A stretch of DNA of 64,000 nucleotides, taken from positions 1,364,001-1,428,000 of the forward strand of contig NZ_CP066203.1 in the NCBI RefSeq assembly GCF_017310545.1. The letters are read 5' to 3'. This DNA is from Methylacidimicrobium sp. B4. Its GTDB lineage: Bacteria > Verrucomicrobiota > Verrucomicrobiia > Methylacidiphilales > Methylacidiphilaceae. Positions 38,394-51,215 of the stretch are shown in pieces. The stretch's first letter is position 1, and every line of letters starts with the position of its first letter. The translations under genes were made by a program, and so were the position numbers. The notes under the pieces were generated by a model. That model saw nothing but the letters and a program-made list of their open reading frames with translations. It made no database searches and had not been told where the DNA came from.

Positions 38394-39722
38394 ATGAACG
38401 ACACCATTGCGGCCCTCGCCACCCCGGCAGCACCGGCTGCCCTGGCCGTGATCCGCGTCAGCGGCCCCCGGTCGCGGGAGATCACCGACCTTTTGCTGCG
38501 GAAGCCCGTCCGGTGGCATCCCCAGAAGGCTTGGCATCGGGAGATCTGGGACGGAGCGGAACGATTGGATGACGTGGTCCTCCTCTATTGGCAACAGCCC
38601 CGCTCGTACACCGGAGAAGAGATGATCGAGGTCTCCTGCCATGGGAATCCCCTCCTGGTCGACCGAATCCTGGCCGCCTATTTCACCCGCGGCGCGCGCG
38701 CGGCCCTTCCCGGAGAGTTCACCCAGCGCGCCTTCCTTCACGGCAAGCTCGACCTGACCCAAGCGGAGGCGATCGCGGATCTGATTCACGCCGGAAGCCT
38801 GCGCAGCCTGACAGTCGCCCAAGAGATGAAAGAGGGAAGGCTGGGCCGAGTCCTGGCGGGGGCGCGCACGACACTCCTGGAGCTCGTCGCCCACGCGGAG
38901 GCCTTCCTTGATTTTCCAGAAGAAGATATCGATCCTGAGGTCGGAGCGGGAATGCTGCATCGCATCGACCGGTTGAGGGACGAGCTGCTCGGCTTGGCGG
39001 GCAGCGCGCCGACGGGCCGGCTGCTCCGCGAGGGGATCGTCGTCGTTCTGGCCGGCCGGCCGAATGTCGGCAAGTCGAGCCTTTTCAACGCGATCCTGCG
39101 GCAGAGCCGGGCGATCGTCTCTCCCCATCCGGGAACAACCCGGGATACGATCGAATCCCTCTGCCAGATCCATGGCTTTCCCGTCCGCCTCATCGACACG
39201 GCAGGTCATCGGACCGCCGAACACCCGGTCGAGGCGGAAGGAGTGCGCCGGGCGGAGGAGGCCCTGCGCTCCGCAGACATCATCCTCCATGTGTCGGTTG
39301 CGCCCGAGCCGCCGGAAGCCGATCCAGTCTCCCGCGCCCCCCTTCTTCCCCATCAACGGCTCCTGCTCGTCGCGAACAAGGGCGACTTGGGCATCCATCC
39401 GGAACGCCGGTCGCAGCTCTGTGTCTCGACGCTCACCCGCCAAGGCTTGCCCGAGCTCGATCGTCTCCTCCATCAAGAAATCGCCTCCCTCGCTCCCGAT
39501 GCGTCCACCGGGAGTGCGGTCAATGCCCGGCAGGAAGCTGCCCTCCGGCGAGCCGCAGCGGCATTGGAGCGGGCCTCCGCCGCCTTTCGAGCGGGTCTGG
39601 CGTGCGAGCTCTGGTGCCTGGAGCTTCGCACCGCCCTGCAAGCCGTGGGAGAGGTGATGGGGGCGGTCACCAGCGAAGAAGTTCTCGACGAGGTCTTTCG
39701 GCGCTTTTGCATTGGAAAGTAA
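38394..39722 (+). CDS. mnmE: tRNA modification GTPase MnmE (TrmE)
   Basis: 442 residues. The start M-N-D-T-I-A-A-L-A-T-P is the family start. An N-terminal folate-binding domain and a helical domain surround an inserted GTPase (G-R-P-N-V-G-K-S-S-L; D-T-A-G-H-R-T, where L or I is usual after the glycine). The protein ends in the obligatory C-I-G-K, whose cysteine is essential. With MnmG it installs the carboxymethylaminomethyl group on tRNA wobble uridine. It diverges from priA with a 124-base gap. Confidence 0.95.
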   Translation: MNDTIAALATPAAPAALAVIRVSGPRSREITDLLLRKPVRWHPQKAWHREIWDGAERLDDVVLLYWQQPRSYTGEEMIEVSCHGNPLLVDRILAAYFTRGARAALPGEFTQRAFLHGKLDLTQAEAIADLIHAGSLRSLTVAQEMKEGRLGRVLAGARTTLLELVAHAEAFLDFPEEDIDPEVGAGMLHRIDRLRDELLGLAGSAPTGRLLREGIVVVLAGRPNVGKSSLFNAILRQSRAIVSPHPGTTRDTIESLCQIHGFPVRLIDTAGHRTAEHPVEAEGVRRAEEALRSADIILHVSVAPEPPEADPVSRAPLLPHQRLLLVANKGDLGIHPERRSQLCVSTLTRQGLPELDRLLHQEIASLAPDASTGSAVNARQEAALRRAAAALERASAAFRAGLACELWCLELRTALQAVGEVMGAVTSEEVLDEVFRRFCIGK

Positions 39723-39880: not shown

Positions 39881-40975
39881 GTGGTTTCAGAGTCAGAAAT
39901 CGGTGCGGCGGTCGCCGAGAAAAAGGCGAAGCGAGAATCCTTCGGCGGCTGGGAATATGCCCGCCTTCTCCACGGTTGGCAGGGATGGCCCCGCGGCACG
40001 ATCCTGGCAGAGGGCCGGGTCATTCCCGGCTATCCGAAGATCGGACGGGTGCACACCCTGGCGGGCATCCCCGCGCTCTTTCACGCCCCGTTCCAGGCCG
40101 AAGAAAAGGTTGACGGCTACAATGCACGCCTTTTTCGAGCAGGGGATTCCCTCTACGCCGCCACCCGAGGCGGTCAAGTCTGCCCCTTTACGACCGACCG
40201 GCTGGCCGACCTGATCGATCCGTCGGTCTTTTCCGCGCACCCGGAGCTGATTCTCTGTGGGGAGGTCACCGGACCCGAAACTCCCTACGTCGAGGGCACT
40301 TCTCCCCTGGTGCCGGAAGGCATCGGCTTCTTTCTCTTCGATCTGATGCGGCAGGGGGCGGAGGGCTTTCTCTCGATCGAGGAGAAGCGCGCGCTCACCC
40401 GCTCCTTCCGCCTTCCTGCGGTCCCGGATCATGGCCGGATCGATCCGAAGGCTCTGAGCACTTTCCGGGAAATCGTGCGCCGGCTCGACGAAGAGGGCCG
40501 AGAAGGCGTTGTCCTCAAGGAGGACTCACCCCGTGGCTTCCGCGCCAAATATGTGACCGGAAGTGCCGAAATCACCGACATCGCGTCGATGGCCCAGCGC
40601 TACCTCGACGTCCCTCCGGAATATTTCACGGAGCGGGTCTTGCGGCTGGCTCTCTTTCTCGAGGAGATGGCGGCGACGGATCGGGAAGGGTGGAGCCGCC
40701 GGTTGGGAGAGGCCTTCCTCACCGCTCTCCAGGATCGAATCGGCTTAGCCCGACGAGGTCAATGCGTCGGCTCCTTCCGCTGCCGCTTCCACTCCCGAGA
40801 AAACGCGCTCCGGCTGCTCGACTCCCTCGGGCAGATCCGCGGCCATGAAGGGGAAACCCGCTTGGTGAACCTCCGGGAGGAAGAGGGATTTTGGGTTCTC
40901 CGATTCGAAAAGCTCTACCGATCAACCACGGGCTTTCTCCGCAGCGCCCTCGGCGGTTCTCTTCGTTTCGATTAG
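39881..40975 (+). CDS. archaeal-type ATP-dependent RNA ligase (Rnl3 family)
   Basis: 364 residues from a GTG at 39881. It is a covalent nucleotidyltransferase: motif I E-K-V-D-G-Y-N with the adenylated lysine at residue 76, motif III region L-I-L-C-G-E-V (123-129), motif IV E-G-V-V-L-K-E-D (208-215) and motif V R-A-K-Y-V (221-225). A helical C-terminal dimerisation domain follows. The layout matches the Methanothermobacter/Pyrococcus RNA ligase family, which seals or circularises RNA ends. The 158-base upstream gap has a GGCCGGCC palindrome and no gene. It converges with its PIN-like partner; the 3' ends overlap by 54 bases. Confidence 0.85.
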   Translation: MVSESEIGAAVAEKKAKRESFGGWEYARLLHGWQGWPRGTILAEGRVIPGYPKIGRVHTLAGIPALFHAPFQAEEKVDGYNARLFRAGDSLYAATRGGQVCPFTTDRLADLIDPSVFSAHPELILCGEVTGPETPYVEGTSPLVPEGIGFFLFDLMRQGAEGFLSIEEKRALTRSFRLPAVPDHGRIDPKALSTFREIVRRLDEEGREGVVLKEDSPRGFRAKYVTGSAEITDIASMAQRYLDVPPEYFTERVLRLALFLEEMAATDREGWSRRLGEAFLTALQDRIGLARRGQCVGSFRCRFHSRENALRLLDSLGQIRGHEGETRLVNLREEEGFWVLRFEKLYRSTTGFLRSALGGSLRFD

Positions 40976-41539
40976 GTGGCAGAGCAGCTCCCGAAAATGG
41001 CGCGCATCGACGACCGCCACCCCCATCCGATCCGCCCACTTGCGCATCCCCTCATCGGCGGCGACCAGGCTGCCGTCAAGCTCAAAGGAAAGCAGCACCA
41101 CGTCGACATCTCCTCGGCTGTCGAGAATTCCCCTCCGCAGCGTTTCCCGGTAGCGCTCCCGGAGCTGGTGCAGCAGCTGCCCGATCTCGGCCGCCTCTCC
41201 CGCCCGCTTGGCATGTTCCTCGGCGATCCGCAGCCCATGGTCGATCCGCTTCCGGACCTCATCGATAAAGTCGTAAAGAAAGTCCCCAGGAATCTGCAGA
41301 TCCGATCTCCGCGGGGAGCGGATCTGAATCACCGACTCGAAGTACCCGATCAGGGAGTCGAGATCGCGCATCTTCCGCAGCTCTTCGTAGACCGAGAGCG
41401 GCATGTAAAACTCCGCGGGGACCCTTCGCGCCAAATCGAGAAAGCTCCCCACCGCCGCCTCGTCTTCTCCGAACTGCGAGGCGACATCCGGATTGGTGAA
41501 GATGCTTGTATCCAGGACGAACCGGTGCATGATCCCCAT
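40922..41539 (-). CDS. RNA ligase partner protein, PIN-like (MJ0950 family)
   Basis: 205 residues. It begins M-H-R-F-V-L-D-T-S-I-F-T-N-P-D-V, a family signature in which the first Asp is a PIN-type metal ligand. A second acidic cluster lies in D-V-D-V-V-L-L-S-F-E-L-D and a third in A-A-D-E-G-M-R-K-W-A-D. This PIN-like family is known for genomic pairing with the archaeal-type RNA ligase, as here. An RNase-like role in creating or trimming ends for the ligase is an inference; no activity is established to my knowledge. The start may be at 41539 or 41530. Confidence 0.85.
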   Translation of the reverse strand: MGIMHRFVLDTSIFTNPDVASQFGEDEAAVGSFLDLARRVPAEFYMPLSVYEELRKMRDLDSLIGYFESVIQIRSPRRSDLQIPGDFLYDFIDEVRKRIDHGLRIAEEHAKRAGEAAEIGQLLHQLRERYRETLRRGILDSRGDVDVVLLSFELDGSLVAADEGMRKWADRMGVAVVDARHFRELLCHLIETKRTAEGAAEKARG

Positions 41540-41648
41540 CCGTTCCTAGACTAGGATGCCCGGCACCGGCAATCCAGCCGTTTGTTGCTCCTTCCGCTTC
41601 TGAGGCTTGCGGATTGTCAACGCTTCCCAACTCCCCGAAACTACCGTT

Positions 41649-42659
41649 GTGCTCTACCGCCTGCTCCTTCGCCGTCTCCTCTTTTTTCTTCCTCCGGAAC
41701 GCGCCCACCACCTCGCCCTCTCCCTCTGCGCAAAGGGCTGGGCGGAACGGCTGCTGCGGCGGCTCTTTCCACCTCTCCCCTCGGGTCTCGAGCGGACCGT
41801 CTGGGGACTCCGTTTCCCGAGTCCGCTCGGGCTCGCCGCCGGATTCGACAAGAACGGAATCGCGCTCGGCGCGTGGGAGGCGCTCGGATTCGGATTTTGC
41901 GAGATCGGCACGGTCACACCTACCCCGCAAGCCGCGAACCCCCCACCCCGCCTGCGCCGGCTCCCGCGGTCGGAGGCCCTCTGGAACCGACTGGGATTCC
42001 CGAGCGAAGGGGCGGAGCAGGTCGCCCGCCGGCTTGCCTTTCTTCGGGCCGAGGGGAGATGGCCAAGCTTCCCTGTTGGAATCAACGTGGGGAAATCCCG
42101 GCAGACGGAGCTCGACCGGGCCGCCGAGGACTACGCACGCGTCTTCTCCCTCCTCCGCGCCTACGGCGACTTTTTCGTGCTCAACTTGAGCTCGCCCAAT
42201 ACCCCCGGCCTCCGCTCGCTCCAGCAGGAAACCCATTTGCGATCGGTGCTCGAGGCGGTTGCCGCGGTCAACCCCCCTCCCGCCAAACCCATCTTGGTCA
42301 AGATCGCTCCCGACCTCGAGGAAAGGGCGCTCGGGCGGATTCTGGAGGTGCTTTTGTCCGGCGGCTGCGACGGCCTGGTCGCCACGAACACGCTGCCGGC
42401 CCCGGACCCAAAGGGCCTCGTGGGAGGGCTGAGCGGCAAGCCGCTGAGCCAGCGGAGCACCGCGGTTGTCCGCTTCCTGGCTCGGGAGAGTGGCGGACGA
42501 CTGCCCATCATCGCCGCTGGAGGAATCTTCGATGGCGCGGATGCCCGAGAAAAGCTCGAGGCGGGTGCCAGCCTGCTCGAGGCCTACACCGGCTTCGTCT
42601 TCCAGGGACCGGGATTTGCCCACGACGTCGGAGGTGCGCTCCTAGGAACGGTTCCGTAG
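41649..42659 (+). CDS. pyrD: dihydroorotate dehydrogenase (quinone), class 2
   Basis: 336 residues from a GTG at 41649 giving M-L-Y-R-L-L-L-R-R, the usual membrane-associating N-terminus; the frame reaches an upstream TTG at 41607. FMN-binding segments are [17 protein letters not shown] and [14 protein letters not shown]; the serine acts as base in class 2 enzymes. It oxidises dihydroorotate to orotate with quinone as acceptor. Its last 18 bases overlap the end of the convergent YyaL-like gene. Confidence 0.92.
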
Positions 42660-45601: not shown

Positions 45602-46768
45602 TTACGGGTTGGGGTTGAGATAGACCTTGCCGGTCATCCACTCGTCGTCGAGTTCGGCCAGCAGGGCGGAAATGAGCCGCAGGCACGATTCGGGATTGGG
45701 GAAGATGCTTGCCACCCGGGTGCGGCGTCTGAGTTCCCGGTTGATGCGCTCCAGGCCGTTGGTGGTGCGCAGCCGCACGCGGTGCTCGACAGGGAAGTCG
45801 AAGACGGTCAGGCTTTCTGGTATGGCTTCCTCAGCCCACTCCCCGAGCTTGGGATGCTCCGTGCGCCATTGCGCAAGCGCCTCCCGTAACAGCCGCTGGG
45901 CCTCGCTTCGATCCGGCGCATTGAAGATCGTGCGCAGCTGCCGGGCAACGGTCTTCTTCGCTTCTTGGCGCGTGACAAACTGACCGGCGTTTTGCTGCAG
46001 GTGGAACTGGCAGCGCTGCCAGGGCACGGAAGGCAACACTGCACGGCGCGCGGCCTTCAGTCCCGCGTGGTCGTCGGCAACGATGAGCTTGACCCCCTTC
46101 AATCCACGGGCAAGGAGGCTTTCCAGGAAGCGGCGCCAGTTGATCTCCGCTTCCGATGTAGCCACCTCGCAGCCCAGCACCCGGCGCTTGCCCGTTGCCT
46201 CGATACCCACTGCAATCAGTACCGCGCAATCGACGATCCGTCCTTCCAGGCGCACCTTCTCATAGCGGGCGTCCAGAAAGAGATAAGGCACCTCGCCCAA
46301 CGGGCGTTCCCGCCAGGCCTTGAGCCCTTCATCGAGTCTGGCGGCAGCGCGACTGACCTGGGCTGAAGAAAGCTTGATCTCCGGCCCCAAGAGCCGCTGC
46401 AACACGTCGATCACCCGCCGGGTGGAGACGCCCTGGACGTACATCTCGGCCAAGGCCAGATTCACCGCCTGATCGGTGCGGGTGCCTTTCTCGAGCGCAG
46501 AAGGATAGAAGTCGCCAGAACGCACTTGCGGTACCTCGAAGGTGAGCTCGCCCAGCTTGGTCAGCACCGTCTTGGGCTTATAACCGTTGGCCCAGTCGCG
46601 CCGGGCTGCGGTGCGCTCGTAGGGCCTGGCGCCGAGAAACTCGACCCGTTCAATTTTGGCCGCTTCATTCACCAAAATGCGCAAGGCTTCGCCTGCGCCA
46701 TCCAGCCCATGCTCGAGTAGCACCGCATAGGCTGCTTCCAAAGGGTTTGTTTCGACTCGCATTACCAT
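45602..46768 (-). CDS. IS256-family (mutator-type) transposase
   Basis: 388 residues, full length and uninterrupted. DDE residues are visible: first Asp in Y-L-F-L-D-A-R-Y-E-K-V, second in L-I-V-A-D-D-H-A-G-L, and the Glu in N-G-L-E-R-I-N-R-E-L-R-R-R. The W-Q-R-C-Q-F-H-L-Q-Q-N motif is also typical of the family. The start at 46768 has GGAG ten bases upstream; a second ATG lies two codons further. The protein looks functional. Confidence 0.93.
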   Translation of the reverse strand: MVMRVETNPLEAAYAVLLEHGLDGAGEALRILVNEAAKIERVEFLGARPYERTAARRDWANGYKPKTVLTKLGELTFEVPQVRSGDFYPSALEKGTRTDQAVNLALAEMYVQGVSTRRVIDVLQRLLGPEIKLSSAQVSRAAARLDEGLKAWRERPLGEVPYLFLDARYEKVRLEGRIVDCAVLIAVGIEATGKRRVLGCEVATSEAEINWRRFLESLLARGLKGVKLIVADDHAGLKAARRAVLPSVPWQRCQFHLQQNAGQFVTRQEAKKTVARQLRTIFNAPDRSEAQRLLREALAQWRTEHPKLGEWAEEAIPESLTVFDFPVEHRVRLRTTNGLERINRELRRRTRVASIFPNPESCLRLISALLAELDDEWMTGKVYLNPNP

Positions 46769-47488: not shown

Positions 47489-49969
47489 CTACTGGCTGCC
47501 GAAACTGTAATTGGGCTTGAGCGACGGAAACGCCTTCAAGGTCGCCCCGATCGAACCCATGATGATCGACTGGGCTCCCGGAAAACTATAATCCTGGAAA
47601 TTGAACGAAACCATCCAGTCCCCCAGATCCCGATAGATCGAGATCGTCTTCATGATCACCGCGCCAACTTCGCTCATGTACAACAAACTCCCGCTCACCT
47701 GCCAATTCTCATTGATCCTCCAGAAATCCGACAGGTAGATGCTGCTCTGTATGTTGGGAGAAATTTGCGCCAGGATCGGCGGCAAGTTATTGATCGGGAG
47801 ATACCCGCCGCCGATCTGCTGAACCGGAAAAAAGCTGCTCGGAATGGTCACATGATTCAGGTACTGGTAGCCGACCGTGATCATGTTCGATTTGTGAAAG
47901 TTCCAGGACACGCTGTTGTTGATATTGGTAAAGCCTTGGTCATACGTCGGTAGTGCCAGATCGGCGTGGTACATCAACCAGGGGACGGGCCTGAAGTCGA
48001 AGGTGCCATAGACCTCGTTCACCGTATCGGTCGTCGGCATGAGAAGGGTGTTGTATTTCCGGTCCCAGTTCGCATCCGTGAAGAGGGTCAGCTCCGCCAG
48101 ATCGTAGTTCTGGCCGTTGCGCTTGGTCTGAATCCGCTGGGTCATCCCCGCGCGCAGGTAGGTCATGCCAAAAAAAGAGTCGACCGATGGATAGTCGATC
48201 GGATTGATGAGCGAAGGCGTAATCGTCGGCATGAGGCTGTCAAATCCCAGGATGTCGTAGGGATTGCCGTAGGGGTTCGGAATATACTGGAAGGTGGCAA
48301 AGGGCTGAATCACGTGGCGCAAGCCATGGATCCCCAAGGCTTCGTTTTCCACGTCACTCCAGGTCTTCGACAGCTTGAACGATGCATCCAGGCCTGCGAT
48401 GAGCAAGCCACGATCGAAGGTGAGCTGCGATTGGTTCATCAGTGGCATCGGCGCATTGAACGCGTTGCCGTAGACGTTCTGATCCGACCAGTAGGTTCCC
48501 TCGACGCCCAGACGGGGGGTGAGGGAAAGCCAATGGAAATACTCCCTCGGGTAGGAGATCTGCTGCAAGGTGTCCCAGCGCCAGCCCCCATAGTTGCTGA
48601 GGAGGTAGGCGTTCCCCAGCCCCTGCTGCTGATAAAACCGATTCAGCGGGAACCAGGGGTAGTACATCCCGAAGAGATTCCCGGTCAGCGGATTCAAGTT
48701 GGAGAACTGCTGTTCGAAGTTGACCATGCTCCAGCGGCTTTCGTAAGCGATCGGGCTATGGAAGATCTTCGCGCGATTCGTTTCGAAGTCGAGCTCTGGC
48801 AGACGGTTGAGCCCGTTGAAGAAGGACATCAGGTTATCTTGGACGAGGAGGTCGAGCGTGAAGCCGGTATGATAGTAGTTGAGCCAGACTACGTCGTTTG
48901 GCTGCCGATTGTAGGGATAGAGTCCGTAAAAAAAGTCCTCCATGATATAAGGATCAGTCCAATAGTTTAAATCGGTTGTCAGCGTGAGATCCTGGCCGAG
49001 CTCGTACCGCTGCTGCAGGCTCGCCATCAGTCGATTGGGGCCCACGTCGTAGCGAGGGAGCGAGGAGTAGTTGAGCAGATAGCCGTAGTCGTAAGGCAAG
49101 CCGAAGAAGCGCAAATCCGCATAGCCGTTCTTGGGCCGAAACCGAGCGAGGCCGCCGAGCCCGATGCCACGGTCTTGATAGTAGGTCAAGTTGAACCGCG
49201 CGGAGAGCTCCTGGTTAAATTTCCACGTGTATAGGATGGAGGCAAACCAGCCCCAGTAGGCATTGTCTCCGGCCGTAAAAAAGATGGTTTCCGAGTCGCT
49301 GTCGAGCGATTGGCTGACGGCGGGAAGCCAGAGGATCGGAACATGGCTTACGTAAATGACGACGTCACGCATGACAACCCGGTCCCCGGAATAGATATCC
49401 ATCGTCCGGGACTTTACCTGGAGCGAGGGATGCTCTCGATTCTGCACCGTGTACATGCCGTGATCGACGTGATAATGATCGGCTTCCGGTGTCGTGAGCT
49501 TTTCCCCACTCGCCAGAAGCGGAAGGTCGACCGAGCCCCAGTCGTTCGCCGTAATCGCCTTGGTATCGATGTTGAAAACCATGTGTGCGGCTCGGAAGAT
49601 CTTTTCGCCCGTGTAGACACGGACGTTCCCGTCGGCGAAGATGTTGCGCGTCCGGTTATCGAAGCTGACCCGATCGGCGTAGAGAGTGGTCTCTCCGTAA
49701 TGGACGACCGCATTCCCCACCGCGGTCGCAATTCCCCCGACAAAGTGGGTCTCCTGGGCGTTGATTTCGACCGGCACCTGGCCGGGAGGGCTGTTCGGAT
49801 CGGTCGCCGGGAGAGCCGGGGCAGAGCAGGGGAGCTCCCCGAGCCAGATCGAGAGGAGAAGAAGGAGCCAAGCCGACGCGGTCCGGAGAGAAATTCCTCG
49901 CCAGAACGGGGAAGAATGGATTCCACCCCGCTCCACGGGCGATTGCCTCTGGGCTCGCATGGCTGCCAT
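47489..49969 (-). CDS. lptD: LptD-like LPS assembly outer-membrane protein
   Basis: 826 residues from the ATG at 49969. A signal or anchor segment (about residues 30-50) is followed by an OstA/LptA-like beta-jellyroll (V-E-I-N-A-Q-E-T-H-F, L-Y-A-D-R-V-S-F-D, A-D-G-N-V-R-V). The remaining about 650 residues are an aromatic-rich beta-barrel. LptD inserts LPS into the outer leaflet. Few cysteines occur, so the LptD disulfide bridges of Escherichia coli are not conserved. The final residues are F-G-S-Q, without a terminal aromatic. It is last in a deoxysugar operon. Confidence 0.82.
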   Translation of the reverse strand: MAAMRAQRQSPVERGGIHSSPFWRGISLRTASAWLLLLLSIWLGELPCSAPALPATDPNSPPGQVPVEINAQETHFVGGIATAVGNAVVHYGETTLYADRVSFDNRTRNIFADGNVRVYTGEKIFRAAHMVFNIDTKAITANDWGSVDLPLLASGEKLTTPEADHYHVDHGMYTVQNREHPSLQVKSRTMDIYSGDRVVMRDVVIYVSHVPILWLPAVSQSLDSDSETIFFTAGDNAYWGWFASILYTWKFNQELSARFNLTYYQDRGIGLGGLARFRPKNGYADLRFFGLPYDYGYLLNYSSLPRYDVGPNRLMASLQQRYELGQDLTLTTDLNYWTDPYIMEDFFYGLYPYNRQPNDVVWLNYYHTGFTLDLLVQDNLMSFFNGLNRLPELDFETNRAKIFHSPIAYESRWSMVNFEQQFSNLNPLTGNLFGMYYPWFPLNRFYQQQGLGNAYLLSNYGGWRWDTLQQISYPREYFHWLSLTPRLGVEGTYWSDQNVYGNAFNAPMPLMNQSQLTFDRGLLIAGLDASFKLSKTWSDVENEALGIHGLRHVIQPFATFQYIPNPYGNPYDILGFDSLMPTITPSLINPIDYPSVDSFFGMTYLRAGMTQRIQTKRNGQNYDLAELTLFTDANWDRKYNTLLMPTTDTVNEVYGTFDFRPVPWLMYHADLALPTYDQGFTNINNSVSWNFHKSNMITVGYQYLNHVTIPSSFFPVQQIGGGYLPINNLPPILAQISPNIQSSIYLSDFWRINENWQVSGSLLYMSEVGAVIMKTISIYRDLGDWMVSFNFQDYSFPGAQSIIMGSIGATLKAFPSLKPNYSFGSQ

Positions 49970-50021
49970 CGGTGCTCTTCCCTCTCGCGAAAGGCCGGAA
50001 GCGACGGGCGCCACTCCGCTT

Positions 50022-51215
50022 CTACGCCGTCCTGACCGGGCGCAAGGCAAAACGAACGATGAGATCGACCACGCGGCGGATCTCGTCGGGCGTCAGGCCG
50101 GGAAAGATCGGAAGGGCGAGCGACTCACGGGCGAGAAGCTCGGCCACCGGAAGCTCCTCGACTTCTCGCTCCTTGTCAAGAAAACAGGGCTGCCGATGGA
50201 GCGGCAAGGGATAGTAGACCTCCGTCTGCACCCCTTCTTCCGAGAGGAACTGGCGAAGGCCGTCCCGGTCCGCCGGATAGCGGATCACGTATTGGTTCCA
50301 GGTGTGCTCGCCCCGAGCGTTGCGCGGTAAGAGAACCGGGTATCCACCCCTCGGGGCCGCCGTCTCCTCCTCGTGGCAGCAGCAGGGATCGGGACAAGGG
50401 GCGGCCGCACCGCTCCTCAGAAACGCCTCCTCATAAAGGGCGGCATTCCTCCGGCGCATCTCCAGCGCAGCGCCGACGTTCGGCAGTCGCGCCCGAAGAA
50501 ACGCCGCTTGCAAGGCATCGATGCGAAAGTTCCCTCCGATCCATTCGTGCCGATACTTGACGCGGGAGCCGTGAACGCGGAGGGCGCGGATCTTTTCGGC
50601 GAGCGCTTCGTCCCGCGTCGTGACAAGGCCCGCGTCGCCCAAGGCCCCCAGGTTTTTCGTCGGAAAGAACGAAAAGCAGCCCAAGAGTCCTCTTCCGCCC
50701 ACCGGTGCGCCTTCGGAGCGGGCCCCAAAGGCTTGCGCCGCATCCTCGATCAGCGCCATGCCGGTTTCCTGGCTCAGCCCAAGCAGCGGGTTCATCGCCG
50801 CCGGCTGGCCGAAAAGATGGACCGGAATCATCGCCCGGGTCTTCGGAGTCCGCTTCCGCACGACCTCCTGCGGAGAGAGATTCCAGCAGCCAGGGCAGGA
50901 GTCGGCAAAGACAGGCTTCGCCCCCGTCCGGGCGATCGAGCCCGCCGTGGCAAAAAAGGTGTAGGCCGGACAGATGACCTCATCGCCGGGACCAATCCCC
51001 AGAGCCGCGAGCGAGAGGAGCAGCGCGTCAGTGCCAGAGGAGACCCCGATCGCATGTGTCACGCCCAGAAAATCCGCGCACTCCCTCTCAAAGGAGGCCA
51101 CCTCCTCTCCCAGGATGAACTGTCCGCTTCCGAGCACGCGGTGAAAGGCTTCTGCCAGCCGCGCTCTTTCTTCCGGAGCGGTCCGTCCGAAGTCGAGCAA
51201 AGGAATTCTCCTCAT
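50022..51215 (-). CDS. DegT/DnrJ/EryC1 sugar aminotransferase
   Basis: 397 residues. The PLP lysine is in F-F-P-T-K-N-L-G-A-L-G-D-A-G, with E-D-A-A-Q-A-F-G and G-T-D-A-L-L-L-S-L upstream. It transfers an amino group to a keto-sugar nucleotide for LPS or polysaccharide. An odd insertion P-C-P-D-P-C-C-C-H-E-E-E sits around residue 275, where relatives have a short loop; the clustered Cys and His could bind metal. The start overlaps the rmlA stop (ATGA), and lptD follows after 52 bases. Confidence 0.88.
   Translation of the reverse strand: MRRIPLLDFGRTAPEERARLAEAFHRVLGSGQFILGEEVASFERECADFLGVTHAIGVSSGTDALLLSLAALGIGPGDEVICPAYTFFATAGSIARTGAKPVFADSCPGCWNLSPQEVVRKRTPKTRAMIPVHLFGQPAAMNPLLGLSQETGMALIEDAAQAFGARSEGAPVGGRGLLGCFSFFPTKNLGALGDAGLVTTRDEALAEKIRALRVHGSRVKYRHEWIGGNFRIDALQAAFLRARLPNVGAALEMRRRNAALYEEAFLRSGAAAPCPDPCCCHEEETAAPRGGYPVLLPRNARGEHTWNQYVIRYPADRDGLRQFLSEEGVQTEVYYPLPLHRQPCFLDKEREVEELPVAELLARESLALPIFPGLTPDEIRRVVDLIVRFALRPVRTA

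Follow-up and report, generated by a model that had tools for sequence, protein, structure and literature searches.

HARP, a protein-only RNase P, and the RNA ligase Rnl3 are associated with each other, and in bacteria their genes are tightly linked; both points have already been published (Seshadri and Gopalan 2025, mBio, PMC12153264). As described in the main text of that survey, HARPs number 573 in archaea and 178 in bacteria, and 89% of them occur with Rnl3; the ligase was never found without HARP, and HARP was sometimes found without the ligase. According to the same text, no growth phenotype was seen for HARP knockouts in two archaea or for a ligase knockout in Thermococcus. RNase P yields a tRNA with a 5'-phosphate and a leader with a 3'-OH (PMC10652100), and the Rnl of Methanothermobacter is reported to ligate a 5'-phosphate to a 3'-OH in single-stranded RNA (PMC5599603). 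Roles have been assigned to the catalytic, tRNA-elbow and cleavage-site residues of HARP (PMC8266387, PMC9051087), which has been classed in the VapC-like PIN group (PMC10941002).

The question addressed here is the retention of a protein-only RNase P beside the ribozyme in some prokaryotes. Methylacidimicrobium species are acidophilic methanotrophs of the Verrucomicrobiota. We analyzed a 64,000-nucleotide stretch of a Methylacidimicrobium genome (the window), in which a HARP gene and an Rnl3 gene lie tail to tail. This pair adds one case to the published HARP-Rnl3 pairing. To the published account we add the convergent bacterial as opposed to the divergent haloarchaeal arrangement of the genes, a mirror-tree correlation between the two proteins, a census of the ribonucleoprotein (RNP) form of RNase P in HARP-bearing genomes, and the finding that the Methylacidimicrobium host has neither fibrillarin nor odd tRNAs.

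Results

The ligase gene occupies positions 39881-40975 of the window on the forward strand, starts with GTG and encodes 364 amino acids. A sequence-only reading of this DNA had described a complete Rnl3-type ligase with motifs I, III, IV and V, and profile searches and PDB matches bore this out. The protein matched TIGR01209, the Rnl3/Pab1020 type of ATP-dependent RNA ligase, over its full length with 288 bits (cut-off 136.9), which places it apart from DNA ligases and ordinary bacterial ligases. It contains an RNA_ligase domain (PF09414, 79 bits) and a Lig_C domain (PF18330, 55 bits). The motif residues are intact, namely K76 (EEKVDGYN), F153-D154 (FFLFD), E208, G209 and K213 (EGVVLK), and R221 and K223 (RAKYVT), and in the alignment columns the residues of motifs I, III, IV and V were invariant in essentially all bacterial relatives. 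The nearest relatives in the PDB were 3qwu (305 bits), the 8uce group and Pyrococcus PAB1020 (2vug); the depositors' name for the 3qwu chain is DNA ligase. The final residue of the ligase (40970-40972) was Asp in all 69 aligned bacterial ligases, including those from non-overlapping pairs. The invariance of this residue in the alignment suggests a structural or catalytic role for C-terminal carboxylates.

The partner gene lies on the reverse strand at 40922-41539 and encodes 205 amino acids. It had been called a PIN-like "RNA ligase partner", and its similarity to the PIN fold is clear from the matches to PF08745 (PIN_5, 202 bits; cut-off 27), TIGR03875 (209 bits; cut-off 95) and NF003344 (279 bits). 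In the text of PMC12153264 the Pfam identifier of HARP is given as PF09745, probably a typing error for PF08745, the family matched here. The best solved relatives (7f3e, 8kd9, 7og5 and 8ssf; E values of approximately 1e-65 to 1e-63) are all RNA-free RNase P enzymes, and we therefore identify the partner as HARP. It was too strong to say, as the sequence-only reading did, that the activity is unknown in bacteria, since HARPs elsewhere have structures and measured pre-tRNA cleavage.

The catalytic residues D10, E53, D140, D144, D146 and D162 were invariant in 87 aligned HARPs, and the arginines of the elbow and cleavage site were nearly so (R96, R127, R131 and R135 in 87 of 87; R104 in 86 of 87). 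The counterparts of PbHARP R108, R116, R123, R138, R142 and R146 are R96, R104, K111/R112, R127, R131 and R135, an equivalence drawn by spacing, with the PbHARP sequence outside the alignment and with K111/R112 a conservative replacement for R123. The C-terminal helix region was also present in the alignment. HARP of this host is predicted to cleave structured RNA with a tRNA-like elbow.

The 54-bp overlap that had been claimed for the two genes spans 40922-40975, counting the stop codons of both open reading frames, and encodes ligase residues STTGFLRSALGGSLRFD and HARP residues LIETKRTAEGAAEKARG. The final 17 ligase residues, which are encoded there, are conserved, and those of the HARP tail (residues 189-205) are poorly conserved. 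Transcription of both genes through their stop codons would make the 3' ends of the two mRNAs antisense to each other. We considered and rejected a special constraint on the overlap: 80% of its positions were invariant, compared to 76% of the other HARP positions and 63% of the ligase positions, and this is not distinctive. No intrinsic-terminator-like site was found within the overlap, and the scan for promoters and terminators was otherwise uninformative.

The flanking genes lie outside the module. Upstream is mnmE, encoding the tRNA modification GTPase (38394-39722, forward strand; start inferred from the TrmE_N match), and on the other side is pyrD, encoding a quinone-dependent dihydroorotate dehydrogenase (41607-42659, forward strand), which is divergent from the HARP gene across a gap of 67 bp. 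The GC content at third codon positions of the ligase and HARP genes (0.73 and 0.77) resembles that of the neighbors (0.76-0.78). Composition thus gives no sign of a recent foreign acquisition, and any acquisition would be old. Farther along the window, approximately 4 kb from the HARP gene, an open reading frame of 388 amino acids on the reverse strand (45602-46768) reads as a mutator-type (IS256-like) transposase. A large outer-membrane-protein-like reading frame, LptD-like by eye, follows on the same strand (47489-50050) in the window's lowest-GC stretch (0.58-0.60), at a change of sign in GC skew.

Of 388 Verrucomicrobiota genomes, the same 7 carried HARP and the ligase, and no others had either gene; all 7 belong to the family of the host. 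These genomes form one clade, so they represent one evolutionary event and not seven independent ones. The pairing extends to the relatives of the host: in all seven family members searched, the genes converge and overlap, by 39, 42 or 54 bp. The pair is not there by chance, as the full-length matches lie far above curated cut-offs and the pair is conserved in all seven of these family members.

In the bacterial genomes of the GTDB collection, the ligase was present in 77 of the 80 genomes with HARP, adjacent to it in 62 and elsewhere in 15. The three genomes that lacked it are all metagenome-assembled (MAGs) and possibly incomplete. All 62 linked loci were convergent, with the genes within 100 bp of each other in 61 and overlapping in 29. 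The length of the overlap was a multiple of three in 23 of these 29, placing the codons of both genes in one register. Flanking genes were seldom common to different phyla. The flanks in Methylacidiphilum sp. Yel are nadA and a UDP-sugar dehydrogenase gene, near dnaA and dnaN, and those in Methylacidimicrobium are mnmE and pyrD. The pair is convergent with changed flanks, indicating that it survives relocation as a unit.

Two haloarchaeal plasmids (L103 and L104) carry both genes in a divergent, head-to-head arrangement with approximately 100-120 bp between the annotated starts. HARP was found without the ligase on three further haloarchaeal plasmids and in Haloferax volcanii, a control genome; the ligase without HARP was not seen in any genome searched. 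This asymmetry suggests that HARP supplies the substrate of the ligase. In the plasmid collection the two genes were confined to haloarchaeal megaplasmids. Carriage by phages or viruses was rejected, as none of 50,697 phage records had the ligase and IMG/VR contained no HARP.

Comparing the phylogenies of the two proteins had been proposed as a check on co-transfer. The trees mirror each other: pairwise HARP and ligase distances were correlated over 65 bacterial pairs (r = 0.94), a value reached in 0 of 2000 permutations, and the correlation inside groups ranged from 0.90 to 0.99. The matching distances support co-inheritance and co-transfer of HARP and the ligase. Both trees, which were made quickly and have several long branches, an unreliable deep branching order and a thin archaeal sample (5 HARPs and 4 ligases), placed the bacterial proteins apart from the sampled archaeal ones. 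Groups common to both were the Methylacidiphilaceae, gammaproteobacteria resembling Ectothiorhodospiraceae, and Aquificota with Tectomicrobia. To describe the pair as best known from archaea, as had been done, understates its spread; many bacteria carry it, and the bacterial proteins form a clade of their own.

The host genome is a single contig of 2.37 Mb, and the nearest relatives of its HARP are in Methylacidimicrobium species and strain LP2A (97% HARP identity). RNP RNase P is present in this genome: rnpB scored 183.6 bits with intact catalytic-core segments, and rnpA was also found. This rules out HARP as the sole RNase P of the host, and HARP would not be needed for ordinary tRNA maturation. 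Decay of rnpB after the gain of HARP was also rejected, as the scores in the family (184-235 bits) fall within the range for the class (166-239 bits). The rnpA scores of the family are at the low end, and that of a HARP-free member of the same order (G078) is lower still.

A census of host tRNA genes gave 47 contiguous canonical genes, which together serve all 20 amino acids, and a tmRNA. In at least 30 of these tRNA genes the CCA end is not encoded. One ARAGORN call, 87 nt long, is a second tRNA-Arg(cct) (contig C1 of G000, 1746967-1747053), unlike the canonical copy at 834496-834569; this call may be spurious or may represent an odd tRNA. A search of the complete host genome for fibrillarin gave nothing over the cut-off of 27 (best match 19.6 bits), and all four archaeal control genomes were positive. 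C/D box RNPs are, to our knowledge, not known from bacteria. RtcB, an RNA ligase that is likewise common in bacteria and acts on different end groups, was found in the host.

We sampled 33 HARP-bearing genomes for RNP RNase P. The 20 genomes outside the Aquificota group all had both rnpB and rnpA, including one (G409) with rnpB only as a contig-end fragment below the cut-off, and neither gene was convincingly found in any of the 13 genomes of the Aquificota group. Because rnpB and rnpA are kept in all of the non-Aquificota genomes sampled, HARP is accessory in the present host. The 13 include a MAG labeled "Acidobacteria bacterium J001" (L093), without rnpA and rnpB, whose HARP-ligase pair nests in Aquificota in both trees; it is probably a mislabeled Aquificaceae genome.

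Discussion

We propose, with moderate confidence, that HARP and Rnl3 form an accessory RNA module of the cut-and-seal type. Their genes are a compact convergent pair, which would be inherited and transferred as one. HARP would cut an elbow-bearing structured RNA so that the upstream product ends in a 3'-OH and the downstream product begins with a 5'-phosphate, and Rnl3 would join 3'-OH to 5'-phosphate, sealing or circularizing RNAs with HARP-made 5' ends. Bulk 5' maturation of tRNA would be carried out by the RNA-based RNase P, whose presence makes the module accessory, and the module would be a device for RNA end processing or for repair or circularization. By analogy with characterized enzymes, the end chemistries of HARP and Rnl3 fit together with no need for a kinase or phosphatase. 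These matching chemistries, the coupled phylogenies and the occurrence of the ligase only with HARP lead us to the cut-and-seal hypothesis. We infer that the two enzymes act on the same RNA, that the product would be a circular or repaired RNA, and that the two genes could be co-regulated through their overlapping 3' ends. Three observations count against the proposal: the archaeal knockouts of HARP and of the ligase had no growth phenotype, three MAGs have HARP without the ligase, and Aquificota keep the ligase even though HARP is their only RNase P, which uncouples the ligase from any accessory role of HARP.

The strongest alternative is that there is no direct cooperation: HARP would back up the RNP RNase P and Rnl3 would repair RNA on its own, both being kept because of RNA damage in hot, acidic or saline habitats and linked by joint transfer. 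Coupled trees and linkage can also arise from joint transfer without joint action, the two genes are unlinked in 15 of the 80 bacterial loci, the hosts live in extreme habitats according to the text of PMC12153264, and with RNP RNase P intact HARP could be a spare. However, the ligase is never seen without HARP, and the pair is adjacent and convergent even where the flanks change completely. Neutral linkage should decay, and no operon holds convergent genes together. We therefore consider independence somewhat unlikely.

The cut-and-seal proposal can also be put in a stronger form, which we think doubtful. Bacterial HARP and Rnl3 would be one obligate unit, co-regulated via conserved 3'-3' overlapping transcripts, that circularizes or repairs an RNA that is neither C/D box RNA nor bulk tRNA, and the 5' processing of tRNA in Aquificaceae would be a later take-over.

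A third possibility, proposed in PMC12153264, is that Rnl3 adenylates pre-tRNA 5' ends under stress as a protective cap, and that HARP later removes the capped leader. This would need this same gene pair, and according to the text of that paper Palaeococcus Rnl3 reportedly adenylates strongly and ligates weakly. It seems improbable for the present family, as recombinant HARP of Methylacidiphilum infernorum reportedly did not process pre-tRNA (cited in PMC12153264). The M. infernorum result, which also counts against our main proposal, would be explained either by another substrate or by an assay that failed in vitro, and the RNase P activity of this HARP may be weak, lost or directed at another RNA.

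It is very unlikely that the pair is a toxin-antitoxin system, with the PIN nuclease as toxin and the ligase as antidote by repair or binding. The genes are adjacent and HARP is in the VapC-like PIN group (PMC10941002), but HARP occurs without the ligase in H. volcanii, three haloarchaeal plasmids and three MAGs, and it serves Aquificaceae as their housekeeping RNase P. The PADLOC models match neither protein, which also rules out a defense system. Maturation of split, permuted or intron-bearing tRNAs, which need cutting and joining, is less probable again. A circular permuted pre-tRNA would need a ligase plus RNase P; missing, split or permuted tRNAs are largely refuted in this host by its complete set of 47 contiguous canonical tRNA genes and a tmRNA. 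The archaeal model, in which C/D box guide RNAs are trimmed by HARP and circularized by Rnl3 (the ligase circularizes such RNAs in Pyrococcus and Thermococcus, according to the text of PMC12153264), is hardly credible here, since the missing fibrillarin (best match of 19.6 bits, below the cut-off of 27, with four positive archaeal controls) refutes it for this host, barring another guide-RNA system.

A methanotroph with an intact ribozyme, without fibrillarin and with an ordinary full set of tRNAs narrows the possible job of HARP-Rnl3. The role of the pair can be tested in such a methanotroph by sequencing RNA ends and circular RNAs, and the conserved convergent overlap is a concrete regulatory feature open to testing.

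Among known systems, Aquifex aeolicus Aq880 and the other solved HARPs share with the HARP described here the catalytic aspartates, the spike-helix arginines and the C-terminal helix region, and one of them is approximately 55% identical to it. It differs in that its C-terminal tail is encoded within the overlap, and in that the host has intact rnpB and rnpA, whereas HARP is the only RNase P in Aquificota. The ligase resembles Pab1020 and MthRnl as a full-length TIGR01209 protein with RNA_ligase and Lig_C domains and all of the nucleotidyl-transferase motif residues. It belongs to a bacterial clade apart from the sampled archaeal ligases, and the C/D box substrates are absent from its host. 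The pairing is that of PMC12153264, with the same families, co-occurrence, tight bacterial linkage and mostly extremophile hosts, although the C/D box substrate model of that paper does not fit Methylacidimicrobium. Its main text describes the arrangement as "typically bidirectional" without telling convergent pairs from divergent ones (supplementary tables may record orientation), whereas in our data every one of the 62 linked bacterial loci is convergent, with overlap in 29, and the two haloarchaeal pairs are divergent.
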